Assembly: GCA_030447865.1 (NCBI GenBank)
Contig: JAUJOD010000002.1
Span: 317,881-381,880, forward strand
DNA length: 64,000 nt
Reading direction: 5' to 3'
DNA from: Nocardioidaceae bacterium
GTDB taxonomy: Bacteria; Actinomycetota; Actinomycetes; Propionibacteriales; Nocardioidaceae
The notes under the pieces are model-generated. The model was not told the origin of the DNA. It did not search any database and worked only from the letters and a program-made list of their open reading frames with translations. Both the position numbers and the translations under genes were made by a program. Shown here one piece after another: positions 2,346 to 36,436 of the stretch (positions are counted from its first letter, which is position 1; every line of letters starts with the position of its first letter).

Positions 2346-4727
2346 ATGGGGCATCGGATGAGAGCCTCGAGGTCGAGCCGATTCTTCGACCTGAGCGTCA
2401 CGTTAGCCGGGGCGGCGCTAGGCGCGGGGGCTTTGTTTGCGCTGGCGCGCAATCCGCAGACCTTTGAGCCGGAGTACCTCCTCGGCATTCCCGTCATCAT
2501 GGTGATGGGCTGGTTCCCGATGCTGGTCGGCCGCACCGGCGGTGGCATCGAGATCGCTTTCGATGCGTGCGTACTGATCTTCCTCGGCATCGAGGCCGAC
2601 CCTTTCCAGGCGCTCATAGTGTGGTCGGCCGGCCTGACGCTAGGGCAGATCCTCACCGGCAAGCGGCGAAGCGTGAAGGCTTTCAACAGTGGGCTGGGTG
2701 TGGTCGCCGGCGCCCTGGCGTTGTTCGTCATCCACACGATGCGCGGCTCGCAGGACGGCGCACTTCGAGAGATGGTCGCTGTCGGGCTCGGTGCAGCTGT
2801 GTACTTCCTTGTCGACTTCATCGTGTCGGCTGTGTCGCTCAGCCTGGAGGAACGCACAAGTATCCGCGAGGAGCTGGCCCCGACCGGTGTCTTGCCGTCG
2901 ATTGTCGCCTACGTGGCAACGGTCTCTCTTGGGTATCTCGGTGCGCTGGTCGTCCGTGAACTGTCCGAATGGTCGGCTGCCTTGCTCGCCGTACCGGTGG
3001 CGACGATCCTTGTCGCGTCGCGGGCGCAGTCTCGCGGCAGCGAGTACGCCCGCCGGCTGCGGGTCCTGCTCACCACGGCTATCCGCGTACAGACGGTCAG
3101 CACGACCCCGGAGATGTTGGAGGAGCTGCGGTCCGGCGCGAGCGACCTGCTGCGCGATCCGCGGGTCCGGTTGAGCACCGAGCCACCCGGAGCGCACGAG
3201 ATCGGTGTTGTCGTCAAAGGCGGCGGAGAGCGACTGTGGCTCGTCTCCCCGGCCCTCAATCGGGCCCGCTCGACGGCCAAGGACGACCAGCAAGGACTGG
3301 CCGCCTTGGTAGCACTGGCCGAGGATGCATTCGCCCGGCTGCGCCTCAGCGACGCCATGGCGCACCTGGCCTGGCACGACCCACTTACCGGGCTCGCGAA
3401 CCGCTCAGTGTTCCTCGACCGGGTGGAGCACGCGCTGGAGATGCAGACGCGTCGAGGTGGGCGGTTGGCTGTGCTGTTCTGCGACCTCGATGGCTTCAAG
3501 CGCGTCAACGACCTGTTCGGTCACGCGGCTGGGGACGAGCTGCTGATCGAGGTCGGCAGCCGTATCAAGTCAAGTGTGCGGCAGACCGACACCGTCGCCC
3601 GGCTCGGTGGTGATGAGTTCGCCGTCCTGCTCGAGGACGTCCACGACACGACGGAGGTCGACGCAGCCTGCCAGCGGATCCTTACGGCGTTGCAGGCCCG
3701 TTCATCGGTCCGCGGCGAGGACGTCTCCATCACCACGACCATCGGTGTCGCGATGTCGGGCACCGGTGCGTCAGCCGATGCGCTGCTCAGCCAGGCCGAC
3801 ATGGCGATGTACTACGGCAAAGCGCACGGCAAGAACCGCTACGAGATCTATCGCCTGTCCTTCGGCGACGAGCGCCTGCAGCGCATCGAGCTGGTCGAAA
3901 CGCTACGTCGTGCGGTGGAGACCAAGGATCTGGAGGTCTACTACCAGCCGGTGGTCGATCTGCGCACTCAGGACATCTTCGGCGTCGAGGCGTTGGTGCG
4001 CTGGCGGCGGCAGGGCGTACTGGTCCCTCCGGACCTCTTCATTCCCACGGCCGAAGAAAGCGGCCTGATTGTCGGCCTCGGCGATATCGTCCTGGAACAG
4101 GTGGCGTCACACGCTGATCGCCTGAGAACCGCAGCTGGGCGCACTTTGACTATCGGCGTCAACGTGTCGGCCCAACAGCTGCAAAGCGAGAACTTCGCGT
4201 CCCAGGTGCGCGCCGCGCGCTCGGTGATGGGGGACGTCCACCTCGTTCTCGAGGTCACCGAGCGCGACTTCGTGAACAACGACCCGCAGACGCTGGCTGC
4301 GATGACGGCGTTGAACGCCGCCGACGTGCGCTTCGCGATCGACGACTTCGGTGTCGGCTTCTCCTCGATCGGCTACCTGCAACGACTACCGGTGCGAATC
4401 CTCAAGATCGACAAGTCGTTCATCACCCGTATCGAGGATGACTCCCGCGCCTGCTCGCTGGTCCGCTCGATGGTCGTGATGGGACAGGCTTTGGGTCTTG
4501 ACGTCGTCATCGAAGGGGTCGAGCGGGCTGGCCAGGTCGACCACCTGATCGACCACTGTGGCGCCACGACGGGCCAGGGGTACCTGTTCAGCCACCCGGT
4601 CCCCCTCGACGACATGGTCCACCTGCTAGCTCGACGAGCGCCGTACCTCGGGCCACCGACAGCTGATGCCGCTGCCAATGGTGCCGCGGCGTCCGAGGTT
4701 AACGCCGGTCTTCCAGCCGCGCGTTGA
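2346..4727 (+). CDS. Membrane-bound GGDEF-EAL protein (cyclic-di-GMP turnover)
   Basis: A 793-residue protein likely to make and/or break cyclic di-GMP at the membrane. The first ~225 residues are a multi-helix membrane region; a soluble region follows to ~340. The GGDEF domain has an intact GGDEF signature at residues 421-425. An inhibitory-site RxxD (RQTD) lies five residues upstream of it. The EAL domain has EALVRW at ~548, the conserved DDFGVGFSSIGYL loop and VIEGVE, so both domains look catalytically competent. ATGs occur at 2346 and 2358; the first is used. No partner gene is adjacent. Net direction of activity cannot be told from sequence. Confidence 0.92.
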   Translation: MGHRMRASRSSRFFDLSVTLAGAALGAGALFALARNPQTFEPEYLLGIPVIMVMGWFPMLVGRTGGGIEIAFDACVLIFLGIEADPFQALIVWSAGLTLGQILTGKRRSVKAFNSGLGVVAGALALFVIHTMRGSQDGALREMVAVGLGAAVYFLVDFIVSAVSLSLEERTSIREELAPTGVLPSIVAYVATVSLGYLGALVVRELSEWSAALLAVPVATILVASRAQSRGSEYARRLRVLLTTAIRVQTVSTTPEMLEELRSGASDLLRDPRVRLSTEPPGAHEIGVVVKGGGERLWLVSPALNRARSTAKDDQQGLAALVALAEDAFARLRLSDAMAHLAWHDPLTGLANRSVFLDRVEHALEMQTRRGGRLAVLFCDLDGFKRVNDLFGHAAGDELLIEVGSRIKSSVRQTDTVARLGGDEFAVLLEDVHDTTEVDAACQRILTALQARSSVRGEDVSITTTIGVAMSGTGASADALLSQADMAMYYGKAHGKNRYEIYRLSFGDERLQRIELVETLRRAVETKDLEVYYQPVVDLRTQDIFGVEALVRWRRQGVLVPPDLFIPTAEESGLIVGLGDIVLEQVASHADRLRTAAGRTLTIGVNVSAQQLQSENFASQVRAARSVMGDVHLVLEVTERDFVNNDPQTLAAMTALNAADVRFAIDDFGVGFSSIGYLQRLPVRILKIDKSFITRIEDDSRACSLVRSMVVMGQALGLDVVIEGVERAGQVDHLIDHCGATTGQGYLFSHPVPLDDMVHLLARRAPYLGPPTADAAANGAAASEVNAGLPAAR

Positions 4728-30870: not shown

Positions 30871-30989
30871 CGAATCAGCGTAAAGTCACCACGCCGACAT
30901 CGCCCTCGCCGGTCACGACCACCGCGCCGGGTCGCAACTGCCGGTGAGCAGACGCCCCCCGACCTAGGTAGGACACCTAGGCTGTCGGT

Positions 30990-32384
30990 GTGCCGGCACC
31001 GGACGACTTCCTCCACTTCGCCGCAGGCCATGCTCACGAGCTGGTGCGGGTTGGTCACGCAGCGACGGGTGAGCTGGCTGTCGGGGAGCGGCTGGCCGAA
31101 GACGCTCTCGTGGAGGTCTTCCGCTCGTGGCCGCTGTTGCCCGCCGATGACCGGCTGCCGGCCGCCCGTCGAGCGCTCGCGACGGCCGCACGTCAGGGCA
31201 GGCGGCTGGCGGCCGCGCCCAGGTTCAGCGGCGGCCTGGAACTTCGAGACTTCCGCGCGGTTGACAACGAGGAGGTGCCGCCTAGTGGTGACCTCGATAA
31301 CGGTGCGGTCCTCTGGGAGGCGCTGGACAACCTCAGCGCGCCGCAGCGGCTGACCGTTGCCCTGCTCTACGCCGGCGACCTCACCGTCGACGAGGCGGCG
31401 CGGGTCCTTCGGCGGCCGGTCGCGGCGGTACGCCGCACGCAATGTCGGGCGCTGAACGAGCTCCGGCTGGCTGCAGACCTCGAGCCGGCCGTGGTTACGG
31501 AGCGAGGGGGTGAGACTGGGGGCGAGGACTATCTCGAGCGGAGGGTCCGAGAGGCACTGCACTCGCACATCGACGTACCTCTCGACGTCGCTCCGCTGCT
31601 ACACCGGGTGGCGGACCGCACCGCCGATGCCCGTCAGCGGTCTCATCGTAGTTTCGCGCTCGCGGGTGCGGCCGGAGTGCTGGTCGTCGGTACTGTGTGC
31701 GCTCTGGTCTGGAGCCTGCTCGGCAGTGCTGCGCCTCAGCGCCCAGACGCGCTGACCCCACCGCCGTTACCGCCGGGAACCCAGCTGGTCGGCTATCGCA
31801 CGATCGCGGCCGTCGTACCGGCGGACTGGACGCTCGCCGAGTTGCGCTGCGGCCGCATCGTCGCGGATGGCACGGCCTACCGGGACTGGGCGACGAGCGG
31901 CCAGTGCACCGCCGCCGGTCGAGCGCCGAGCGTCACCTTCGCCGACGCGCCGATCAACTTCGCACCGATGTCCGCACCGCCCGAGCGGACGAGCCACGTT
32001 GCCGGCTACGTATCGATGCGCTCGTTGCTGACGCGGATCAAGGGCGTCTATCAACAGACGGTGTTCGTCTTCGCGGCTAGGTTCATGATGACGGTGCGCT
32101 CACCCGACCTGAAGGTCGTAGACGCCATCATCTCCTCGATTCGCGCGGTACCCGACGGGTTCACCGTCGTTCCGGCATGTGAGCGGCTCCCGATGCGAAA
32201 GGCCGTCGCCGCGTTGTCCGACGCTGGCCTGACCGCAAACCTCTTGTTCACGACGTCACTGGCGATCGGGCCAGCCTTACCGCCGAGCCGGTACGGCGGC
32301 CCACTGGTGACGCTTCAGGACCGGGCGTCGGGCTCGGTCGTCCGTGCCGGAACCGCTGTGGCGCTGACCATTCCCGGTTATTGA
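30990..32384 (+). CDS. Sigma-factor-like / transmembrane / PASTA-like fusion protein
   Basis: A 464-residue protein made of parts that are separate genes 2.6 kb away. Residues ~5-75 resemble a degenerate sigma region 2 (DDFLHFAAGHAHELVRVGHA). Residues 105-160 resemble region 4 (LWEALDNLSAPQRLTVALLY ... RALNELR). Residues 183-215 match the cytoplasmic stretch of the membrane protein at 35549. A helix follows at ~221-245. The outside part has two Cys (ELRCG, SGQCT) and a C-terminal PASTA-like unit (~390-464). It may be a membrane-tethered sigma factor or a dead regulator; DNA binding is unproven. No family is known to me. Confidence 0.75.
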   Translation: MPAPDDFLHFAAGHAHELVRVGHAATGELAVGERLAEDALVEVFRSWPLLPADDRLPAARRALATAARQGRRLAAAPRFSGGLELRDFRAVDNEEVPPSGDLDNGAVLWEALDNLSAPQRLTVALLYAGDLTVDEAARVLRRPVAAVRRTQCRALNELRLAADLEPAVVTERGGETGGEDYLERRVREALHSHIDVPLDVAPLLHRVADRTADARQRSHRSFALAGAAGVLVVGTVCALVWSLLGSAAPQRPDALTPPPLPPGTQLVGYRTIAAVVPADWTLAELRCGRIVADGTAYRDWATSGQCTAAGRAPSVTFADAPINFAPMSAPPERTSHVAGYVSMRSLLTRIKGVYQQTVFVFAARFMMTVRSPDLKVVDAIISSIRAVPDGFTVVPACERLPMRKAVAALSDAGLTANLLFTTSLAIGPALPPSRYGGPLVTLQDRASGSVVRAGTAVALTIPGY

Positions 32385-32447
32385 CGCTGTCGACGCCTGG
32401 GGTAAGCACCCGGCGGATTGTCGGTGGTCTGCTCTATTGTCGTATGC

Positions 32448-33775
32448 ATGTTCGACATCGACTTTACCGCTCTGGACGCCGATGCCACGTTGGCGACAGC
32501 GGGCAGTGCGCGGGCGGTGGCGGAGCGGGCCGAGGTGGTTGTGCTGCAAGCCGCGGCGCATTGGGCTGATCTGCACGGCAATCTCGGCGTCGACCCGGAC
32601 AGCCACGCGTTGCCGGGGATGGAGCAACTTGTTCAGCTGGGCGGTGACGGCACACCGGAGGTGGCGGAGTTCGCGCCGGCTGAGCTGGGTGCTGAGCTGG
32701 CCATGTCACCATTCGCGGCCCGGCAGCTGATCGCGGATGCGTTGGATCTGCGACACCGCCTCCCCCGGCTGTGGGGCCGGGTGCTGGCCGGTGAGGTGAA
32801 GCCGTGGATCGGCCGCAAGACCGCCGACGCGACCCGGGCCGTCCCCGCCGAGGTCGCCGCAGAAGTGGACCGGCGGGTGACGAAGTGGGCGCACGCACTG
32901 TCGTGGGGCCGGTTGGAGCACATCATCGCCGCTACCGTCATCGCCGCCGACCCCGCCGCCGCGCAGCAGCAGGCACGCCAAGCGCAGCAGCAGCAGGGCG
33001 TATGGGTTGGTCAGTCCAGCGACCACGGCATCAAGGACATCTTCATCCGCACCGAGACACCGAACGCGATCTGGTTCGACGCCTCCATCGACCGCATCGC
33101 CGACAGCCTCAGCTTGCTCGGCGACACCGACAGCAAAGACAACCGCCGCGCACGCGCGGTCGGAGTGCTAGCCCAACCACAACAAGCACTCGACCTCTTC
33201 GCCACCACCGCCCGGCTGGCCGCCGGTGGCGCCACCGCGACCCCCGCCGTCGGAACAAGCGGGATTGACCCGCGGCCACCGGCGACCCTGTACATCCACC
33301 TCGACCAGGACTCCTTAACCCGCGACAGCGACGGGGTGGCCCGGTTCGAAGGGTCGGCCCGGTCACCATCGACCAGGTTAAGACGTGGCTCAGGCACTGC
33401 CAGGTGACGGTCAAACCGGTGATCGACCTGGCCAACCAGGCACCCGTCGACGGCTACGAAGTCCCCGACCGGCTACGGGAAGCGATGCACCTGCGCAGCC
33501 CGGTCGACGTGTTCCCCTACGCCACCAACACCACCCGCACCAAACAAGCCGACCATTCCGACCCGTACATGGACCCCGGTGACGGCGGGCCACCAGGCCA
33601 AACCCGGCTGGACAACCTCGCCCCCATGGTCACGTTCCATCACCGGATCAAGACCCACGGCCGATGGCAGGTCAGACACGTGTTCAACGGGGTCTTCGTC
33701 TGGCGATCACCCCACGGGCGACTATTCCTCGTCGACTCCACCGGCACCCACCGCATCACCACCACCGCCGCCTGA
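32448..33775 (+). pseudogene. DUF222 / 13E12-type HNH endonuclease gene, frameshifted
   Basis: Two frames of one gene. The first (to ~33350) starts MFDIDFTALDADATLATAGS and holds the DUF222 core MSPFAARQLIADALDLRHRL with KPWIGRKTADATRAVP. At about 33349 a single-base loss shifts the frame. The continuation in the next frame reads GPVTIDQVKTWLRHCQVTV and ends with the HNH part TRLDNLAPMVTFHHRIKTHG and WRSPHGR. As written, the first frame stops at 33407. It is either a true pseudogene or a sequencing error. The family is repeated many times in actinomycete genomes and is probably mobile. Confidence 0.8.
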
Positions 33776-34961: not shown

Positions 34962-35552
34962 GTGGCTGACGACCCGGTGAGCGACTTCGACGCGTTCGCC
35001 GTGTCGTTCGCCGGCAACTTATACAACCTCGCCTACCTGCTGACCGGCCATCGGCAGGCAGCCGAAGACCTGACCCAGGACGCGTTATTGGCGATCTACC
35101 GGCACTGGTCGAGGGTCCGCGCCGTCGACCGCCCCGATGCCTACGCCAAACGGGTGCTCACCAACTGCCATCTCGGCCGGCACAGACGTCGACGAGTCAC
35201 CGAAGTGGGTGGAATCGACCTCGTCGACGTGGAAGCGAGGGGTCTTGACCATGACCCCATCGCAGCATTCGCCGAACGCGACGAGATGTGGGAAGCGCTG
35301 TCGACGCTGTCAGACCGCCAGCGAGCCGTACTGGTCTTGCGCTACTACGAGGGCATGACCGACCGAGAGATCGCCGCCACGTTGCGGTGGCGGGCAGCAA
35401 GCGTGCGCAGTACGGCGGCGCGAGCCCTCTCCCGATTGCGGACGGCGTCTGGCCTCGTCGCCTCCCCGCCCGGTACTGCAAGCGTCGACACCGCCGCTCG
35501 TCGCGCCGCCGATCGCACTTCGGTCACCGAATCCAACCCGAGGAAGCCATGA
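34962..35552 (+). CDS. SigE-family ECF-type RNA polymerase sigma factor
   Basis: A 196-residue extracytoplasmic-function-like sigma factor of the actinobacterial SigE family. Region 2 covers ~8-78 (LAYLLTGHRQAAEDLTQDAL, RPDAYAKRVLTNCHLGRHRR) and region 4 covers ~107-160 (TLSDRQRAVLVLRYYEGMTD, REIAATLRWRAASVRSTAAR). The GTG start at 34962 follows GGAGACTGAGAGCC. Its stop overlaps the start of the next gene by four bases (ATGA), so the membrane protein is probably its coupled partner and candidate anti-sigma factor. It shows end-to-end similarity to residues 5-160 of the fusion at 30990. Confidence 0.9.
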   Translation: MADDPVSDFDAFAVSFAGNLYNLAYLLTGHRQAAEDLTQDALLAIYRHWSRVRAVDRPDAYAKRVLTNCHLGRHRRRRVTEVGGIDLVDVEARGLDHDPIAAFAERDEMWEALSTLSDRQRAVLVLRYYEGMTDREIAATLRWRAASVRSTAARALSRLRTASGLVASPPGTASVDTAARRAADRTSVTESNPRKP

Positions 35553-36436
35553 CGTCAACCGAGGATCTTCTCCGCGAGACCCTGCACCGCCACGAGGCCG
35601 ACGACTACGACGTCACAGACCTGCTCACAAGGGTCCGTCAAGAGATCGGCCAGGCAGACGCAAACACCAGTGCGCGGCCATCACGGCTGACCGCTGCCGC
35701 ACTGGCTCTAACAGCAGTCGTCGTGGCGGTGGCCGCAGTGGGCTGGTGGGTGCAGTCCCTGCCGGGCACCGACCATCCCGAGCGGGACAACGCTGCGGTG
35801 GGCACAACTCCCCTACCGACGAAGAGCGGCGCTGCGAGTGCGGCGGTACCGCCGCCCGGGATGAAGTTCGTCGGCTTCCGCGGCCTCATGCTCACCGTCC
35901 CCGAGTCGTGGGGCCAGACGACGTCGTGTCATCTGTTCCAGTCCGGCGCAGTCCACTATGCCGACTTCGGCCCAGACGAACTCTGCCCGGGGCCGCTGCC
36001 AGCGGGTCTGGTGGCGTTCAACGAGTCGATCGTGGGCCCGCCGTCGCTGCTGGGCCGGACGATTCCTTGGGGCAAGATCGGCGGCCGACAACTCCTGATC
36101 ACGGCTCTGCGGGAGCAAGGCGATCACTACAGCCAGGCGCTCGCGCTCCCAACCGAGCAGTTCTACGTCCGGGTGCTGGCAAGCCACCGCCCAACGGTCG
36201 CGCAGATCGTGCAGTCGGCTGCGCCGATACCCCGTGGATACACGGTGGTGCCGACCGTTGAGTCAATGACGCCCGGCGTCGCCAAGTCTGCTCTGACCGA
36301 TGCTGGCCTGCGCACGACGCGACGTCCCGTCAATATGGGGTTCGACCCACAGCGCGTCGTGCGAGTGCGCACACAACTGCCGGCCGTGGGCAGCGTCGTA
36401 CCGGCCGGCTCGCGAGTGCAGATCGTCACCTACTGA
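35549..36436 (+). CDS. Single-pass membrane protein with two-Cys extracellular domain and PASTA-like end
   Basis: A 295-residue predicted partner of the upstream sigma factor. The ~45-residue cytoplasmic part (LLRETLHRHEADDYDVTDLL) is followed by a helix at ~46-68. The extracellular domain starts at PPPGMKFVGFRGLMLTVPES and has two Cys (TSCHL, ELCPG). The C-terminus GYTVVPTVESMTPGVAKSAL ... VVPAGSRVQIV resembles a PASTA repeat, a fold known to bind cell-wall muropeptides in other proteins. It is homologous to residues 183-464 of the fusion protein at 30990. It has no zinc-finger anti-sigma motif. Confidence 0.8.
   Translation: MTSTEDLLRETLHRHEADDYDVTDLLTRVRQEIGQADANTSARPSRLTAAALALTAVVVAVAAVGWWVQSLPGTDHPERDNAAVGTTPLPTKSGAASAAVPPPGMKFVGFRGLMLTVPESWGQTTSCHLFQSGAVHYADFGPDELCPGPLPAGLVAFNESIVGPPSLLGRTIPWGKIGGRQLLITALREQGDHYSQALALPTEQFYVRVLASHRPTVAQIVQSAAPIPRGYTVVPTVESMTPGVAKSALTDAGLRTTRRPVNMGFDPQRVVRVRTQLPAVGSVVPAGSRVQIVTY

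Follow-up and report, generated by a model that had tools for sequence, protein, structure and literature searches.

A probable pseudo-sigma domain in a conserved sigma/anti-sigma fusion that probably arose once

What becomes of a sigma factor when it is covalently joined to the protein that inhibits it? The question is raised by a 64,000-nucleotide stretch of DNA from a Nocardioidaceae bacterium (the window; contig JAUJOD010000002.1, positions 317,881 to 381,880), which holds both a split and a fused version of one sigma/membrane-protein module and so serves as a natural before/after pair. An earlier note on this DNA had described the fused version as a single 464-residue frame and had left its role between a sigma factor released by proteolysis and a degenerate decoy. 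We find that the gene is a conserved sigma/anti-sigma fusion that probably arose once and carries a probable pseudo-sigma domain. In the eight copies analysed the sigma fold stays, and the residues that contact polymerase and promoter are gone.

Results

One frame joins a sigma-like half to a membrane sensor

The module order proposed earlier (sigma-like, transmembrane, outer and PASTA-like) is correct, and the 464-residue frame is present as one open reading frame that recurs in frame elsewhere (Table 1). An AF2 model of the whole chain (464 residues, 53-row alignment) had a mean pLDDT of 83.5 and a pTM of 0.51, and recovered an ECF fold. It places three helices in the sigma-2-like domain, four within residues 104–161, one at 177–194 and a long one at 201–245, followed by a beta-rich outer part; the linker between the sigma-2-like and sigma-4-like domains is of low confidence. 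The long helix spans the membrane segment, in line with the single membrane helix of the earlier note. The cytoplasmic segment before the membrane comprises the 177–194 helix and the start of the long helix and is without a Pfam match. By direct reading there is no cysteine within residues 162–221, and a Pfam scan of the window protein, read up to an E value of 10, matched neither a zinc-finger anti-sigma domain nor a receiver domain.

Table 1. Features of the fused gene, its upstream region and the unfused pair (window coordinates)
Feature	Coordinates	Strand	Details
Direct repeat ACCTAGG-TAGGAC-ACCTAGG running into -10-like TAGGCT	30962..30983	+	Promoter/operator candidate
Fused gene: pseudo-sigma (probable), TM, PsbP-like domain (suggestive), PASTA; 464 aa	30990..32384	+	GTG start, one frame
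Sigma-2-like domain, residues 1–80	30990..31229	+	Helices H4-26, H29-45, H52-74
Sigma-4-like HTH, residues 104–165	31299..31484	+	Helices H104-113 to H144-161; Pfam PF08281, model
Short cytoplasmic segment, residues 177–224	31518..31661	+	Aligns with the cytoplasmic N terminus of split membrane proteins
Membrane helix, about residues 222–245	31653..31724	+	Model helix H201-245, hydrophobic stretch
First domain of the outer part, residues 257–385; fold suggestive of PsbP	31758..32144	+	C287 and C306
PASTA domain, residues 386–464	32145..32381	+	C397 near its start
Split sister pair, sigma gene: canonical SigE-family ECF sigma, 196 aa	34962..35552	+	Intact AEDLTQ, Y, N
Split sister pair, membrane-protein gene	35549..36436	+	Same extracellular domain and PASTA

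The earlier note had made its reading depend on sigma similarity within residues 1–165, and this similarity is present. The SigE-family profile TIGR02983 matched the N-terminal part with an E value of 1.1e-17 and the whole window protein with 1.3e-16, and similarity was above chance over residues 5–162. The scores (60.9–64.4 bits) lie below the curated cut-off of 141.55, as does, by one bit, that of the canonical sigma of the neighbouring split pair (140.6 bits). Pfam Sigma70_r4_2 matched the window protein exactly at its gathering score (25.7 bits), and no Pfam sigma region 2 was detected in it up to an E value of 10. The sigma part of the window protein alone found nothing in the PDB better than an E value of 0.08, and a four-member profile matched Mtb SigE there at 1.6e-5 over residues 11–152. 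TIGR02983 matched all seven fused members scanned at E≤0.001, and at E≤0.1 Pfam detected region 4 in five of the seven and region 2 in two. Against a canonical profile, four fused loci, one of them cut at its 5' end, scored 68–100 bits as opposed to 185.7–200.9 for 19 split-pair sigmas in the same table.

The modelled sigma half superimposes on SigW bound to RsiW (Z 16.4, 3.5 Å over 144–145 residues), on RpoE bound to NepR (Z 15.8) and on PhyR/NepR (Z 13.1). This match to closed forms weighs little for mechanism, since an isolated ECF sigma may be expected to be modelled in the same way. A search of the window's own genome with Pfam PhyR_sigma2 (PF22029) at E≤0.001 gave six matches, none at the fused gene; four of them are places already found by the sigma query. 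Mimics are not separated from sigmas by this profile.

The fusion recurs in several genomes

The family scan showed the fusion as a full-length or near-full-length single frame in six genomes from three genera, at no fewer than seven loci: the window (G000), G001, G003, G108, two loci in G107, and G002, where the contig cuts off the 5' end. The survey proposed in the earlier note thus returned the same arrangement elsewhere. Contig-cut pieces on G002 contig 28 and G027 contig 27 probably belong to the fused group as well, although the junction itself is not visible in them. Family, order and class scans scored the best four candidates per genome, and some genomes of the family scan recur in the samples of the order and the class; among the matches listed from 391 genomes of the order and 394 of the class there was no single-frame fusion beyond the window's own. 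The order-level matches in G371 and G393 contain two stops each.

That two genes had been joined by a sequencing or assembly error, a danger named in the earlier note, is refuted to the point of being practically impossible. All six genomes are multi-contig assemblies, which would leave room for such an artefact, but the same in-frame fusion occurs at seven or more independent loci in six genomes, at identities down to 31% and in a common synteny. The fused gene is divergent from a flavin reductase gene and adjoins a block of luciferase-like, Sir2 and methyltransferase genes, from which a DUF222 gene separates it in genus g1. The second fused copy of G107 (L078:2039-3409) lies off the conserved locus and adjoins an aldo/keto-reductase-like gene. 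The DUF222 gene of the window (32418–33775) occupies two overlapping frames (329 and 123 aa), and its G001 counterpart is one 464-aa frame (L041:8016-9410).

Ten flavin reductase regions were inspected for the ancestral locus. One of them, in G025, kept the luciferase-like gene alongside, the two being direct neighbours with nothing between; the other nine had no luciferase-like neighbour and are uninformative (L116 ends 0.8 kb past the gene). The window's split pair sits between luciferase-like and Sir2 genes, and no split pair was found at that place in the four relatives with contig coverage (G001, G002, G027 and G025).

The fusion derives from a two-gene pair

The source of the fusion is explained by the unfused pair 2.6 kb downstream of the fused gene, to which the earlier note makes no reference and in which the sigma gene and the membrane-protein gene overlap by ATGA. 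With the best six candidates per genome scored, the membrane protein of this pair was matched in at least 75 of 341 family genomes at E≤1e-8, in some over the PASTA part only. At 21 of the 23 loci fetched outside genera g1–g3, a sigma gene stands immediately upstream of the membrane protein (19 of these sigmas score as canonical, L136 is assembly-gapped and L137 degenerate); none was found upstream at L142 and L146. Two separate genes are therefore the ordinary state at these loci, and the fusion is derived. An 818-aa frame at L136 was considered as a second fusion in another genus and rejected, an NN gap standing where sigma-4 belongs.

In a tree of membrane halves (36 rows), the eight fused sequences form one clade (support 98/93), and the window's split pair is sister to it (97/94). 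On this sequence evidence the membrane half has a single origin. A quick tree of sigma halves (50 rows) groups the fused copies weakly (79) and on very long branches; here too, the unfused sequence closest to the window copy is the sigma of the window's split pair. Fusion of the sigma with its membrane partner most likely took place once, in an ancestor of three related genera.

Among the split pairs, the membrane protein at L141:1480-3120 (G169) has two tandem outer-domain matches in one frame. Repeated, partly masked sequence lies directly upstream of another split sigma/TM pair in the same genome as the window (L046, about 3400–4000), and similar repeated sequence precedes the homologue of that pair in G001 (L048).

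Core-contact and promoter-melting residues are lost from the sigma half

Eight fused sigma halves (the seven loci and the contig-cut G002 piece) were compared with 75 unfused SigE-family sigmas, which were picked by similarity to canonical sigmas, so that degenerate unfused ones may be under-counted. The 75 were drawn from 85 non-redundant stretches, nine from fused loci and L137 being set apart. The Asp of region 2.2 is present in 74 of the 75 unfused sigmas and in none of the fused, where its place is taken by R, R, E, Q, R, R, S and Q. The Gln of region 2.2 and the Tyr of region 2.3 are each found in 75/75 unfused and 0/8 fused sequences, and the Asn of region 2.4 in 62/75 and 0/8. A Ser in the recognition helix of region 4 (67/75 unfused) is likewise missing from every fused copy, all eight having Arg. 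The equivalent residues of the window protein are R34 for Asp, E37 for Gln, A58 for Tyr, T65 for Asn and R149 for Ser, R149 being invariant in 7/7 fused proteins. A slip of the alignment is excluded, since region 2.2 aligns without gaps up to a conserved Trp. The recognition helix is altered further in G003 (V to P, K to G) and in G107b (V to L, K to D).

The DxxDxxQE motif of region 2.2 makes direct contact with core RNA polymerase (PMC13147305); primary and ECF sigmas share the residues that touch the beta' coiled coil, and N88 of SigH acts as a wedge that opens the promoter (PMC6411747). Judging by the R-I-x-x-N pattern in our alignment, the lost Asn would be the equivalent of SigH N88. We infer from these substitutions that the sigma half no longer initiates transcription.

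The same five residues (D, Q, Y, N and S) are all lost from the sigma of one unfused split pair (L137:941-1453, G189). Decay is therefore not strictly tied to fusion, and pseudo-sigmas may arise without it.

Constraint on the two halves is inverted after fusion

Of 325 pairwise comparisons among 26 split pairs (L137 included), 316 show the sigma as better conserved than the membrane protein it is paired with. For the sigma half of fused proteins (seven loci) the figure is 2 of 21, the comparisons being non-independent in both sets. At membrane-half identities of 0.30–0.50, sigma identity is 0.33–0.70 in split pairs (median 0.54, 257 comparisons) and 0.27–0.38 in fused proteins (median 0.32, 17 comparisons). 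Constraint is thus inverted after fusion: the sigma half is now the less conserved half, and most invariant columns of the fused family fall in the outer part.

Substitution rates indicate that the fused sigma half is still under selection and not freely drifting. Three g2 comparisons gave dN/dS of 0.19–0.34 for the sigma half and 0.20–0.29 for the outer domains, values on which pseudogene decay was rejected as the sole account, and the reading frame is open across the sigma part in all eight fused copies. The two G002 copies (dN/dS 0.59, bootstrap 0.28–1.37) are compatible with relaxed selection but too noisy to decide, as is the G000–G001 comparison over residues 1–130 (0.157, bootstrap 0–0.64).

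Divergence between G000 and G001 is uneven along the locus. Flanking genes mostly have a dS of about 0.10–0.18 (0.28 for a subtilase gene), and the neighbouring DUF222 gene has 0.50. Within the fused protein, dS is 0.07 for residues 1–130 and 0.58–0.78 for residues 301–464, where dN is 0.14–0.28. The patch of raised divergence extends over 31380–33400 (dS 0.28–0.78), taking in parts of the fused gene and of DUF222, with a break at about residues 246–300. The outer domain may have been exchanged through recombination.

The outer part combines a PASTA domain and a possible PsbP-like domain with an odd cysteine

The earlier note's two-cysteine extracellular domain holds as far as C287 and C306 are concerned, which all 28 aligned outer parts share; a third cysteine, C397, has to be added. 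C397 occurs in 8/8 fused and 0/20 split proteins. Within the aligned stretch the number of cysteines is even (2 to 8) in all 20 split proteins and exactly three in all eight fused ones, so one outer cysteine of the fused proteins is probably unpaired. This count hints at a dimer held together by a disulfide, or at a thiol switch.

Scanning the window protein with Pfam gave no match at the PASTA-like C terminus of the earlier note; this domain is supported instead by its relatives, by a profile and by modelling. Pfam PASTA matches at E≤0.1 were obtained for 6 of 7 fused proteins and for 27 of 28 related outer parts, and the family profile matches the PASTA of PknB at 6e-6. Modelled alone with 28 relatives, the outer part reached a pLDDT of 87, and the C-terminal domain model superimposes on PBP1 PASTA with a Z score of 10.8 (1.6 Å over 60 residues). 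The best match of the first outer domain is PsbP (Z 7.9, 3.6 Å over 104 residues), suggestive of a PsbP-like fold.

A repeat upstream of the fused gene

The TAGGCT element into which the upstream repeat runs ends 6 bp before the GTG. The repeat is the only site in the genome within three mismatches and is kept in G001, while the sequence further 5' differs. A scan for sigma-70 consensus promoters and terminators returned nothing at the repeat. The repeat is a possible operator with a leaderless promoter.

Discussion

The explanation we lean towards, which we judge slightly more probable than its contrary, is that of a membrane-tethered pseudo-sigma acting by protein binding, either held in cis or capturing anti-sigma segments, rather than a releasable sigma factor. 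A two-gene module, consisting of a SigE-family ECF sigma and a single-pass PsbP-like/PASTA partner, merged into one gene, and its sigma half lost core-contact and melting residues and retained its shape. In cis, the pseudo-sigma would be clamped by the anti-sigma-like helix of the same chain and let go when the outer domains change state. Alternatively, it would act in trans, capturing anti-sigma helices that belong to other membrane partners, in the way that PhyR captures NepR. The outer domains would set the state, perhaps as a dimer linked by a C397 disulfide. No further protein with the same outer domain was found in G003, G027, G107 or G108 (best six candidates per genome, assemblies 77–93% complete), so that capture in trans is not evident in all hosts. 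The tethered pseudo-sigma reading is also weakened by the sigma-4 HTH, which is detectable in five of seven fused proteins; DNA binding may persist. Between the two options of the earlier note, a degenerate decoy is better supported than a sigma released by proteolysis, because core-contact and melting-helix residues are lost in 8/8 fused copies and the fold is retained.

A functional ECF sigma kept at the membrane and freed by regulated proteolysis, as has been suggested for ECF48/52/53 and demonstrated for IutY, is an improbable account, even though the overall domain order equals that of the ECF52 protein SCO4117 (PMC5826349, PMC8999054) and TIGR02983 recognizes every fused member scanned. 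ECF43 sigmas without the region 2.2 charges still work, via phosphorylation (PMC13147305). A sigma restored in this manner is disfavoured here, as Asp is replaced by Arg in four of the eight fused copies, and phosphorylation cannot make good such a reversal of charge; Gln, Tyr and Asn are lost from all eight, and canonical-profile scores are far below those of the split-pair sigmas. Equally improbable is a vestigial sigma half, in which the outer PsbP-like/PASTA sensor works and the cytoplasmic part is merely an anchor or spacer. The mostly outer location of invariant columns, the lower conservation of the sigma half and the dN/dS between the two G002 copies are in its favour, but it fits poorly with sigma-half dN/dS similar to that of the outer domains in the three g2 comparisons, with the confident fold of the model and with open frames in 8/8 copies.

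ToxR and CadC are one-component membrane regulators, and the fused protein could resemble them, binding DNA through the sigma-4 HTH and dimerizing outside through C397. The HTH at the Pfam gathering score, the Arg at position 149 in 7/7 fused proteins where unfused sigmas mostly have Ser, and the odd outer cysteine in 8/8 are consistent with such a regulator. Against this, G003 and G107b have a broken or altered recognition helix and region 4 is undetected in two of seven members. We consider this explanation improbable, to about the same degree as the two before it. Unlikely, if less so than these three, is a transmembrane analogue of PhyR, a disulfide-dimerizing wall receptor whose pseudo-sigma would bind anti-sigma segments and free SigE-family sigmas by partner switching. 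That judgement applies to the proposal as a whole, in which the protein was born when a sigma factor became joined to its cognate anti-sigma factor.

How, then, does the fused protein compare with known systems? Its closest relatives are the split sigma and TM/PsbP-like/PASTA pairs of the same bacterial family, which are direct homologues; these differ in being two genes, in having a canonical sigma in nearly all cases and in their even number of outer cysteines (20/20). The earlier statement that no described family has this order of modules was too strong in outline. ECF48, ECF52 and ECF53 of Actinobacteria are sigma–TM–extracellular fusions (PMC8999054), and SCO4117 is a membrane-fused sigma of ECF52 (PMC5826349). 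Like them, the fused protein has sigma-2 and sigma-4, then a TM helix and then an extracellular domain in one chain. Unlike them, it has no zinc-finger anti-sigma domain between sigma-4 and the membrane, and it ends in PsbP-like and PASTA domains where ECF52 has a proline-rich/carbohydrate-binding end. It also lacks core-contact and melting residues, which may be a further difference from ECF48/52/53. Membrane-fused ECFs and sigma mimics are each known; a PASTA/PsbP-like sensor end joined to a worn sigma half was not found described in the literature searched, a search that had the main ECF classification (Casas-Pastor 2021) outside its scope and does not establish absence from print.

IutY (ECF243) is a sigma fused to its own membrane anti-sigma that becomes active after proteolysis in iron-starvation cell-surface signalling (PMC8999054). 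The fused protein shares with it the joining of a sigma to its own membrane anti-sigma partner, but IutY is active and the sigma half here is degenerate. In its short, predicted two-helix cytoplasmic segment before a single TM helix, it may resemble class II anti-sigmas of the CnrY type; CnrY wraps its sigma with two short helices, of which one lies on sigma-4 and the other on sigma-2 (PMC7406223). By analogy, a CnrY-like clamp geometry is possible in cis in the fused protein.

PhyR, a response regulator, has a receiver domain (PMC4598750), keeps the ECF fold with degenerate polymerase- and promoter-contact regions (PMC8103513) and captures NepR (PMC8103513, PMC4598750). The fused protein is unlike PhyR in being a transmembrane protein with an outer sensor, without a receiver domain and without a PhyR_sigma2 match. 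It is like PhyR in combining an ECF-like fold with degenerate polymerase and promoter surfaces. If it is indeed a mimic, the annotation of such genes as sigma factors would be wrong, and sigma mimicry would extend from the alphaproteobacterial PhyR to an actinobacterial membrane receptor.
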